DNA from: Alphaproteobacteria bacterium
GTDB lineage: Bacteria; Pseudomonadota; Alphaproteobacteria; Rhizobiales; Aestuariivirgaceae
Assembly: GCA_024642465.1 (NCBI GenBank)
Contig: JAHEBA010000005.1
Location: forward strand, 1-64,000
Direction: 5' to 3'
DNA length: 64,000 bases
Shown: piece by piece, positions 31,413-34,028 of the stretch
Numbering within the stretch: position 1 is the stretch's first letter
Layout: each line of letters starts with the position of its first letter
The notes under the pieces: generated by a model
What the model saw: only the letters and a program-made list of their open reading frames with translations
Told to the model about the DNA's origin: nothing
Databases searched by the model: none
Program-made: the position numbers and the translations under genes

Positions 31413-31523
31413 TTATTTGTTCTGGTTGCGCAGCTGCTGCAACATCAGCGTCGTCGCGAATGTCACAAAGCCTGCCAGCACCATAATCAGGTAGAGCTCT
31501 TCATAACCGGTCATGTCCTTCAT
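31413..31523 (-). CDS. Single-helix mini-membrane protein (36 aa), Fnr-type promoter
   Basis: A 36-residue ORF starting MKDMTGYEELYLIMV, with one predicted transmembrane helix (residues 11-28) and a basic tail LRNQNK. CAAGGAG lies just upstream of the ATG. Its promoter region holds a perfect Fnr/FixK consensus palindrome, centred 63 bp upstream of the start codon. Such mini-proteins are often accessory subunits of terminal oxidases or other membrane complexes; no partner is visible here. The gene is short, but SD, helix and promoter agree. Confidence 0.65.
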   Translation of the reverse strand: MKDMTGYEELYLIMVLAGFVTFATTLMLQQLRNQNK

Positions 31524-31579
31524 CTCCTTGAGGAATCTTGAACCGATGACGATTTTTTGCGCGTCCCGCCGGACTGGCC

Positions 31580-31593
31580 TTGATTCAAATCAA
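31580..31593 (-). promoter_or_regulatory. Fnr/FixK box upstream of the 36-aa gene
   Basis: TTGATTCAAATCAA is a perfect TTGAT-N4-ATCAA match to the Fnr/FixK/FnrL consensus. On the minus strand an AAAAAT hexamer begins 29.5 nt from its centre, as expected for a site at -41.5. Confidence 0.75.
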
Positions 31594-31769
31594 GCCCGGC
31601 GACCCCGCGTACGTATTTTCCGTGCGGCAAAACGCGCATTCCATGCAACAGAAAATATCATGGACGATCAGTAAAACGCATAGCAATATGCGCTCAAGTC
31701 ATCGCGGCATTCGTTTGCCGCATGATCACCGGGCCAAATCATCGTTCAACACCTCTTGGAGACCTCGAC

Positions 31770-31970
31770 GTGAGCTACAATCCGACGTTCCGCCTGAACC
31801 CCAAGCAGCTTTCCCTGATCGAAGATGCATTGCGCGCCGAAATGAGCCGCACGGCCCGCCCCGACTGTCAGCAGTCGGTGCAAAGCGCCAGGGAAATCAA
31901 CGATCTGCTGGCGCACCTGCATCACCAGAAAAGCTGGTATCAGCCGAAGCAGCCTGTGCCGCTGGGCTAG
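31770..31970 (+). CDS. Small hypothetical protein
   Basis: A 66-residue protein if it starts at GTG 31770, which has TTGGAG about nine bases upstream; ATG 31722 would add 16 residues. It is helical and polar (KQLSLIEDALRAEMSR, INDLLAHLHHQKSW). No family is recognised. The 150 bp before it hold a long-range inverted repeat (TGCGGCAAA near 31623 and TTTGCCGCA near 31712) that could fold in the leader. Confidence 0.5.
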   Translation: MSYNPTFRLNPKQLSLIEDALRAEMSRTARPDCQQSVQSAREINDLLAHLHHQKSWYQPKQPVPLG

Positions 31971-31986: not shown

Positions 31987-32565
31987 CTACTGCAGGCCTC
32001 TCTCCTTCAGCCGCGCGGCGATGAGCTGCGCGGCCGTTCCGTCTCTGGAGAAGCATGATTCGATGTTGCGCAACCGGCTCGAGACGCTGATCTCGGGAAA
32101 GCCGATGCCCTTCATGTCGGCGGCCAGGGCTTCGCTGACCTGCTTCAGGCCCTCCTGGCCGAAGCCCTCCTCGTCGCGCAGCCGCAGCATGGCGATGCAG
32201 TCGGCCACCGCCTCGTTCATCAGATGCTCCGGTCCGTTGCGGGGCGGATGCGGCATGTCAACGTCGCCGGTCTGGTGGTGGGCGCACTCGTGCCGATCGA
32301 TGAATTTCTGGAACGCTTCCGGCGCTGCGGCATAGTTGGCGCGCATCACCACCGGACGGCCCTCACCGTCACGCCGCGCCATGCCGGCGGCAAGCCCCTG
32401 TCGGCCCGCCTCCACGGATTCGAAGGAGACGGTTACACCCTTGTTGTTGACGCACGATGGCGGCGGCGCCACCTGATGGGCGCCGTCCTGGGCCAGCGCC
32501 GGCAGGCTGCTGCCGGGCAGACACGCGCACAAGGTCGCCAGTGAAATCGCTATCAGCCTGTGCAC
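31987..32565 (-). CDS. Secreted HExxH-type putative metallopeptidase
   Basis: A 192-residue protein with a signal peptide (RLIAISLATLCACLPG to ALAQDG). A zinc-peptidase motif HECAHH is followed about 30 residues later by NEAVADC, the order expected for a gluzincin with Glu as third ligand. Four Cys may form disulfides. I cannot match a named family, so proteolytic activity is inferred from the motif. A small membrane-protein gene lies immediately upstream on the same strand. Confidence 0.62.
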   Translation of the reverse strand: MHRLIAISLATLCACLPGSSLPALAQDGAHQVAPPPSCVNNKGVTVSFESVEAGRQGLAAGMARRDGEGRPVVMRANYAAAPEAFQKFIDRHECAHHQTGDVDMPHPPRNGPEHLMNEAVADCIAMLRLRDEEGFGQEGLKQVSEALAADMKGIGFPEISVSSRLRNIESCFSRDGTAAQLIAARLKERGLQ

Positions 32566-32583: not shown

Positions 32584-32775
32584 TCAGTTGGCCGGGGCAG
32601 AGTCTGCCGCAACCGGGGTGGCCGGGGCAACACCCAGTTCGCCGGAGCCGCCACGGGCCATGTCGATGATGCCCAGCACCAGCGACGTGAGGTAGTAGTA
32701 CATCACCCAGCCAGTCACCACGACCATGGCTACGAGTGTCACGACGATGGCAATCTTGTCGAAAATCTCGATCAT
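32584..32775 (-). CDS. Small hypothetical membrane protein
   Basis: A 63-residue protein (start MIEIFDK) with one strong transmembrane segment (IAIVVTLVAMVVVTGWVMYY) and an Ala/Pro-rich tail. A longer reading from 32847 adds 24 residues without a better ribosome site. It precedes the metallopeptidase-like gene by 18 nt and is probably co-transcribed. No family recognised. Confidence 0.52.
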   Translation of the reverse strand: MIEIFDKIAIVVTLVAMVVVTGWVMYYYLTSLVLGIIDMARGGSGELGVAPATPVAADSAPAN

Positions 32776-33001
32776 TTGCGAATATTCCACCAGCAAGTGC
32801 GCCCGCAGGACCATCCTGCGGAGCGGGAAGACGGCGAACGGCTTCATCAGTCAATTCGTCGGGAAACGGTGCCTGCCGCGTTGAGCGCACCCTGGGCTGG
32901 AAGGCGCTGCAGACCTGATCACGCTACACCTGGCCGGGGCGGCGCAAAAGCGGGATTCAGGGTGCATTTTCGAGCCATGCAGAAGACGCATTGCTTGAGG
33001 G

Positions 33002-33596: not shown

Positions 33597-33959
33597 TCAG
33601 GCCTGCTCGATCATGTCCTGGAAGCGCTGGAAGTTGGGGCAGAAGGTGTTCGGCCCCTCGTTCACCGGCTTGCCGTTCAGGTATTTCCGGCAGTTGCGCA
33701 CGTCGCCGCACTGGCTGCAGGCCTGGGCCATTTCCAGCTCGCGCCAGCGGTCGCGCCCGATCTCTGCCGGGTCCAGGCCGAGCGAGCGGGACATGGCTTC
33801 CATGCATTCGCGCGTATCTGCGGGCGCATTGGTGATCCAGTCCCGGTCGGCTGGGGTGATCCCGGCGTCGGACAAGTCTGACCGGCCGAGCGCCATGATG
33901 AACTGGCGGTCGCGCTGGCGGGCAAGCATCTGGCGCACCTTGCCGGCGATTGTTTTCAT
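33597..33959 (-). CDS. Small cysteine-motif protein (DUF6455-like), Fnr-type promoter
   Basis: A 120-residue soluble protein. The N-terminal half is helical and basic (KVRQMLARQRDRQFIMALG, then LSDAGITPADRDW). The C-terminal half has a Cys cluster ACSQCGDVRNCRKYLNG, with another Cys in TFCPNFQRF, suggesting a zinc or iron-sulfur site. It resembles the DUF6455 family, whose role is not established. An Fnr-like palindrome is centred 62 bp upstream of its start codon, so regulation by oxygen or redox is likely. Confidence 0.68.
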   Translation of the reverse strand: MKTIAGKVRQMLARQRDRQFIMALGRSDLSDAGITPADRDWITNAPADTRECMEAMSRSLGLDPAEIGRDRWRELEMAQACSQCGDVRNCRKYLNGKPVNEGPNTFCPNFQRFQDMIEQA

Positions 33960-34014: not shown

Positions 34015-34028
34015 TTGATCGAGGTCAA
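34015..34028 (-). promoter_or_regulatory. Fnr-like box upstream of the Cys-motif gene
   Basis: TTGATCGAGGTCAA differs from TTGAT-N4-ATCAA at one base. On the minus strand CATCCT (33992-33987) begins 29.5 nt from the centre, matching a class II promoter for the gene starting at 33959. Confidence 0.6.

Follow-up and report, generated by a model that had tools for sequence, protein, structure and literature searches.

CydX (YbgT family) is a protein of about 37 aa with a single helix that is tied to the respiratory oxidase cytochrome bd, and YohP of Escherichia coli is reportedly linked to adverse conditions. CcoM is described as a 36-aa subunit of the cbb3 oxidase (PMC10433244, PMC9264385), and one of these accounts also places YnhF in bd oxidase (PMC9264385). 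Besides, a study of small proteins in S. meliloti mentions SEP20 as another small protein encoded in an oxidase operon (PMC10117765). The annotated targets named in a comparative analysis of the FNR/FixK regulon include, e.g., cbb3 subunits, UspA, RSP2984 (glutamyl-tRNA reductase) and OmpW (PMC2908626). In Rhodobacter sphaeroides, 13 FnrL ChIP-seq sites were reported upstream of no annotated gene, two of them near small RNAs (PMC4263372).

Here we describe a small gene found in a 64,000-nucleotide stretch of alphaproteobacterial DNA (the window). An earlier note on this DNA, made from the letters of the sequence, had pointed to a short membrane protein behind a perfect Fnr/FixK box. No description of the protein was found in a literature search confined to article texts; the excerpted text of PMC6515984 does not mention it, and the terms sought did not occur in PMC4999443.

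Results

The Small Gene and Its Product

The open reading frame 31413-31523 on the minus strand was listed at 36 aa. The AAGGAG that had been noted ahead of it was present (Table 1); it directly adjoins the ATG at 31523 (0 nt), whereas the ATG at 31514 follows at a distance of 9 nt. In an alignment of the starts of the family, the nearest relatives were shown to initiate at the equivalent of this second Met, with the sequence M-T-x-x-E. Because of this spacing and of the start used in the relatives, the protein is most likely 33 aa long, not 36, and the second Met is most likely the true start.

Table 1. Features of the small gene, numbered from the first letter of the window.
Feature	Position	Strand	Basis
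Predicted CDS of the 33-aa membrane protein MTGYEELYLIMVLAGFVTFATTLMLQQLRNQNK, including stop	31413..31514	-	Start alignment of the family, dN/dS of the relatives, helix
Shine-Dalgarno AAGGAG	31524..31529	-	Sequence reading
Fnr/FixK box, TTGATTTGAATCAA on the strand of the gene, 5' end 79 nt before the ATG	31580..31593	-	Sequence, conservation, shuffles
Predicted -10 element AAAAAT, class-II spacing (site centred at -41.5)	31552..31557	-	A/T conservation and letters of the window

Among the copies of four sister species (G001-G004), dN was 0.027-0.083, and dS was 0.67-1.28 in the four pairs where it was defined and saturated in two pairs. Third codon positions held 84 of the 106 pairwise differences, and mean identity was 0.82 for the reading frame and 0.89 for the box compared to 0.38-0.39 for the 100-bp flanks. 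By these measures the sister copies evolve under purifying selection. The window copy was found to have diverged from the sisters, with amino-acid changes at 17-19 of 33 codons (dN 0.59-0.69; dS 1.8-2.9 for three pairs, with saturation in a further one). Conservation of the frame among relatives had been set beforehand as the test of the gene, and the proposal survived it, the frame being open, kept and under purifying selection. Thus, what had been put forward as an unlisted 36-aa reading frame is, by its coding pattern, a real gene with a conserved frame, although its length probably needs to be corrected to 33 aa with a start at 31514. Genes of this type tend to be overlooked by annotation.

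The single hydrophobic helix that had been proposed was borne out by a hydrophobicity peak of 2.16 over residues 7-25 (19-residue scan) and by an AlphaFold2 model consisting of one helix, residues 3-32, with a mean pLDDT of 90.5. When the two ends were compared, net charge was greater at the C-terminal side for 47 of the 56 members and smaller for two, which by the positive-inside rule suggests a topology with the N-terminus out and the C-terminus in. Conservation along the helix showed a periodicity peaking at 100 degrees, a strength equalled by 22 of 20,000 permutations for columns 5-29 and by 564 of 20,000 for columns 8-26. The most conserved positions include E5, Y8, L9, V12, F16, F19, L23 and Y/W25. 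This pattern points to a single conserved helix face that would pack against another helix, either of a partner or of the protein itself.

The Promoter

The box claimed upstream of the gene was confirmed as a perfect palindrome, TTGATTCAAATCAA. It is the sole perfect TTGATN4ATCAA in the window, in which three matches were found with one mismatch allowed compared to 0.61 expected, and the whole genome (3.85 Mb, 85% complete) contains nine perfect sites. A box with at most one mismatch to TTGAT-N4-ATCAA was present within 170 nt upstream in 39 of 47 loci found by protein search, a set that includes near relatives, so that the loci are not independent, and to which L133 and L134 (score 18 or less) were admitted partly for their box. 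The best boxes of these 47 loci showed no mismatch in 22, one in 17, two in six, three in one and four in one. In the controls, shuffled sequences reached one mismatch or fewer in 0.66% of trials, and downstream stretches did so in 0 of 47. The two poorest boxes belong to L116 (three mismatches, genome G541) and L123 (four mismatches, genome G494); neither ccoN nor cydA was found in these two genomes, and at a threshold of 1e-20 the latter showed no Fnr-like hit and the former a weak one.

In the full set of 63 loci, the best box (at most two mismatches) begins 60-125 nt before the ATG in 60 and 66-81 nt before it in 56. When the promoters were aligned on the box and numbered from it, position 38 was an A in 36 of 60 and position 42 a T in 40 of 60, and this conserved A/T pair falls at the -10 place expected for a site centred at -41.5 (class II). 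A box centred about 41.5 bp before the predicted start, together with a -10 element, was found both in the window and in the family, and the implied transcription start lies near 31545, with a leader of about 31 nt. The promoter travels with the gene and looks like one under direct control of an Fnr/FixK-type regulator.

The boxes of the family were also found to be followed by a conserved N-G-C (G in 51 and C in 43 of 60), which lies outside the usual palindrome. Perfect boxes followed by NGC were searched for hidden equivalents of the gene in the 14 Fnr-positive genomes without the family; 31 such boxes were present in 12 of these genomes, two having no match, and no hydrophobic reading frame of 20-80 aa was found at the class-II position in 30 loci.

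Distribution of the Family

When the 33 residues were used as a query against 60 related genomes, 10 gave matches at E ≤ 1, and eight of the 10 matches, including that of the own genome, showed an exact TTGAN6TCAA box upstream of the ATG. Two matches without a box (L009, L010) were judged to be chance and were dropped. Apart from the window genome, five genomes of its genus were covered, and four of them contain the gene. The order (397 genomes) and the class (240 genomes) were searched with stepwise profiles (A1, A3, A4). Members, judged by sequence, were found in at least 24 GTDB families (counted as family labels) of one class, which is named Alphaproteobacteria here from record titles reading alphaproteobacterial or plain "Proteobacteria". 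Of the 240 class genomes, 22 scored E < 1e-8, each with one strong match, and this count is a lower bound because four weaker matches (G461, G653, G645, G542) each carry a box with at most one mismatch. Another weak match, G483, carries a box with two mismatches, and L161 and L165 carry none. In a phylum sample, six of 398 genomes matched at E ≤ 1e-4, all six within the same class.

When 84,980 species were searched with a DNA pattern combining box, spacer and five coded residues, 20 contigs matched; all 20 encode the family, and four are loci also found by protein. Strains of the culturable Aquibaculum arenosum and Denitrobaculum tricleocarpae were among the matches. The pattern matched no viral contig, and the family was not found on plasmids, either by tblastn or by DNA search. 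No convincing match was obtained in Pfam and NCBIfam for 28 members each, in PHROGs for the window protein, or in a profile search of the PDB with the family (best E 0.28). As far as these searches tell, the family is absent from the libraries used and conserved across many Alphaproteobacteria. Before the counts on 63 loci were made, the duplicates L078, L087, L088 and L089 were removed; L108, a true member with a box, was left out by the filter on reading-frame length, and the weak matches L136 and L137, where no family member was found, were dropped.

Genomic Neighbourhood

According to crude gene calls, the downstream neighbour is convergent in 47 of the 63 loci, and a same-strand gene lies within 100 nt downstream in five. 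On these calls, the gene is predicted to be monocistronic in most loci examined. When the proteins of the neighbourhoods (up to about 10 kb on each side; 17 of the 63 stretches 8 kb or shorter) were clustered, no cluster occurred in more than 10 loci or at a fixed position across families, and position-stable clusters were shared only by loci whose genera were identical or closely related. A Pfam scan of 79 immediate neighbours, covering proteins of 120-700 aa with the window and 16 near-duplicate loci left out, showed no respiratory family among the best 25 of 73 families matched. CcoN was found in one of the 63 neighbourhoods. The nearest cydAB genes seen were those of three sister species, about 20-22 kb away.

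A few loci showed a different setting. At L282 of genome G201, a locus outside the 63, the small gene is directly flanked by an fnrL-like gene on one side and by ccoN on the other; it has a box of its own 68 nt before the ATG, and another box precedes ccoN. This large genome contains a second copy (L283) near nifN. In genome G012, narG, narK, cco genes and a gene for an FtrB-like regulator form an island to which locus L095 belongs, about 9 kb from ccoN. At L133 (genome G628) one box is common to the small gene and a divergent Usp gene, and L093 (genome G022) has Usp and baeRF-family genes close by, together with three further boxes.

Around the gene in the window, the reading frames 31722-31970(+), 31987-32565(-) and 32584-32847(-) showed no Pfam match. 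In three sister species the second of these, of 192 aa, recurs at a distance of about 4.5 kb from the small gene.

Relation to Terminal Oxidases

The statement that no oxidase gene is nearby holds for cbb3 and bd: a tblastn search of the window with CcoN, CydA, CydB, CcoP, NarG, HemN and the FnrL-like protein found nothing. Elsewhere in the same genome, ccoNOQP with the following cco genes (contig C217) and cydAB (contig C99) were present.

The test of co-occurrence with possible partners covered ccoN and cydA. Among the 53 carriers of the family, ccoN was found in 43 (15 of 22 in the class sample and 28 of 31 in the order sample) and cydA in 34. For ccoN the class carriers were enriched compared to the other genomes (15 of 22 vs. 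83 of 218; Fisher p = 0.011, not corrected for phylogeny). For cydA no enrichment was seen (34 of 53 carriers, including 10 of 22 class carriers, vs. 16 of 27 non-carriers). Of the 98 class-sample genomes with ccoN, the majority lack the family, which was found in 15 at E < 1e-8, and ccoN was present in 12 of the 14 Fnr-positive genomes without the family. No ccoN was found in 10 of the 53 carriers, of which G428, G111 and G396 are the three under 85% complete. Six carriers showed neither ccoN nor cydA, one 77% complete (G428) and five 97-100% complete (G446, G494, G541, G628, G385), so a cbb3 or bd oxidase was not seen in all carriers. The existence of such carriers, together with that of non-carriers with ccoN, indicates that cbb3 can do without the gene and that the gene is not limited to cells with cbb3 or bd. 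An obligatory cbb3 or bd partner was accordingly rejected, neither ccoN nor cydA being obligatory by co-occurrence. Two 100% complete genomes in which neither gene was found, G446 and G628, have a good box and the small gene; G628 contains 15 perfect boxes and showed no Fnr-like hit at 1e-20.

At the level of the protein, none of 28 members matched the Pfam or NCBIfam models for CydX, CcoS (FixS) and CcoQ (FixQ) at E ≤ 1, the Pfam families being those that we take to stand for these proteins. The family profile scored at noise level against E. coli CydX, and the small gene was not found encoded with cydAB, as CydA and CydB occurred in none of the 63 neighbourhoods nor in the window. Comparison with a profile of 26 CcoQ sequences, extracted from 26 of 42 cco regions (the rest having no reading frame under the filter), gave a score of 19.2 and a probability of 24%. 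CcoM of P. stutzeri scored 18.6 against the family profile, a value reached by two of 152 random membrane helices, and four members kept outside the profile as positive controls scored 29-43. The resemblance to CcoQ and CcoM thus falls at the top end of what random membrane helices reach, and may be taken as a hint and no more.

The Regulator and Other Boxes

A matching activator was found in the window genome, namely an FnrL-like protein with C-X2-C-X7-C encoded about 0.7 kb before ccoN. It scored 217 bits against the NCBIfam FnrL model, below the curated cut-off of 300, and contains an E-T-V-S-R recognition helix. An Fnr-like hit at 1e-20 was obtained for 47 of 53 carriers vs. 14 of 27 non-carriers (Fisher p = 0.0006, not corrected for phylogeny). 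Other boxes in this genome precede ccoN (one mismatch), hemN and a Usp-like gene (Usp named by eye).

Within the window and 2.4 kb away from the small gene, a DUF6455 gene, 33597-33959(-), encodes 120 aa with five Cys. It has an Fnr-type box at 34015-34028, 69 nt before the ATG (TTGACCTCGATCAA on the strand of the DUF6455 gene), which makes the gene a candidate second Fnr target in the window. On contig C76 of the same genome, a secreted-looking protein of 486 aa with Gly/Ser/His repeats and no Pfam match (L201) stands 91 nt behind a perfect Fnr box.

Discussion

The computational analysis supports a conserved gene under selection that carries an Fnr-type promoter, is mostly monocistronic and encodes one helix with one conserved face. 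We consider it about an even chance (probability roughly 0.5) that this is a stand-alone gene activated by Fnr, FnrL or FixK, whose helix acts in trans on an inner-membrane respiratory complex encoded elsewhere and tunes its stability or activity. When oxygen falls, an Fnr-type activator would bind the box at the class-II promoter and a short transcript would be made; the helix translated from it would insert alone in the membrane, and its conserved face would pack against the larger inner-membrane respiratory complex encoded elsewhere, adjusting the stability or activity of that complex at low oxygen. The topology, induction by low oxygen, binding of a protein through the conserved face and the respiratory nature of the partner are what we infer. 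Most often the helix would act in cells that contain cbb3, and the cbb3 branch is the first candidate partner because of the enrichment of ccoN and the arrangement at L282. Since carriers without cbb3 and bd exist, the partner must be broader or differ between lineages.

Read more narrowly, the product would be a true accessory subunit or an assembly factor of cbb3 whose gene stands apart from those of the oxidase, the alphaproteobacterial equivalent of CcoM; to this we give perhaps one chance in a few. Both the presence of ccoN in 43 of 53 carriers with its enrichment in the class (p = 0.011) and the position of the gene between an fnrL-like gene and ccoN at L282, or about 9 kb from ccoN at L095, argue for it, as do the 36 aa of CcoM and its score of 18.6, reached by two of 152 random membrane helices. 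The true members outside the profile scored far above CcoM, however, the family is missing from the majority of class-sample genomes with ccoN, and ccoN was not found in 10 carriers of which three are under 85% complete. The proposal of the earlier note, an oxidase accessory of CydX/CcoS type, finds support only in part: the real single-helix protein, the Fnr-type promoter, the regulator, the enrichment of ccoN and L282 agree with it, whereas no model was matched and six of 53 carriers showed neither ccoN nor cydA. Those carriers, and the stand-alone position of the gene, would suit a modulator of another low-oxygen membrane system, be it bc1, aa3, complex I, a sensor or a transporter, or else a general membrane stress peptide like YohP, as would the box common with a Usp gene at L133 and the surroundings of L093, with Usp and baeRF-family genes and three further boxes. 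This reading indicates no specific partner, however, its support being mostly the absence of oxidases, and we regard it as somewhat less probable still than a cbb3 accessory.

Two further readings carry very little weight. A small hydrophobic helix encoded by a stand-alone gene might be the low-oxygen-induced membrane toxin of a type-I toxin-antitoxin pair, but an activator-type promoter position kept across families, a single strong match in each of the 22 carriers of the class sample and a conserved helix face make this improbable in the extreme. The very short frame could also have arisen by chance, or lie incidentally on an RNA; with dN well below dS in the sisters, a conserved start, helix and codon-position pattern, and a reading frame conserved beyond the flanks, such a non-functional origin is the least credible of all.

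Returning to a helix that acts in trans on a respiratory complex, a further version of this reading, which we put forward tentatively and with the odds against it, is that of a hitherto undescribed, class-wide alphaproteobacterial microprotein added at low oxygen in trans by Fnr to a constitutive respiratory complex common to all carriers. If true, the protein would be an oxygen-conditional subunit, working even in species without cbb3 or bd, and would count among the unlisted targets that explain Fnr-family sites upstream of no annotated gene. The small gene is in any case a concrete candidate of the kind that Fnr sites without an assigned gene may serve, and it adds to the alphaproteobacterial low-oxygen response a conserved gene that annotation is prone to miss.

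Compared to known systems, the family is like CydX, the bd subunit of the YbgT family, in being a small single-helix protein, but differs in that it matched no model, was not accompanied by cydAB in 63 neighbourhoods and showed no enrichment of cydA. CcoQ/FixQ is a small single-helix component of the cbb3 operon, and that of the window genome, a separate gene inside ccoNOQP, contains a superficially similar LYL..AGFV, whereas the family lacks the R-P-G and the acidic tail of most of the 26 aligned CcoQ sequences. YohP and YnhF of E. coli are also small single-helix proteins, likened here by description. Although the family also occurs in genomes where ccoN was not found, and its profile score lies within the upper tail of random helices, it is like CcoM (the 36-aa subunit of the Pseudomonas stutzeri cbb3, PDB 5djq chain N) in length, in its single helix, in its basic C-terminus and in its low-oxygen setting.
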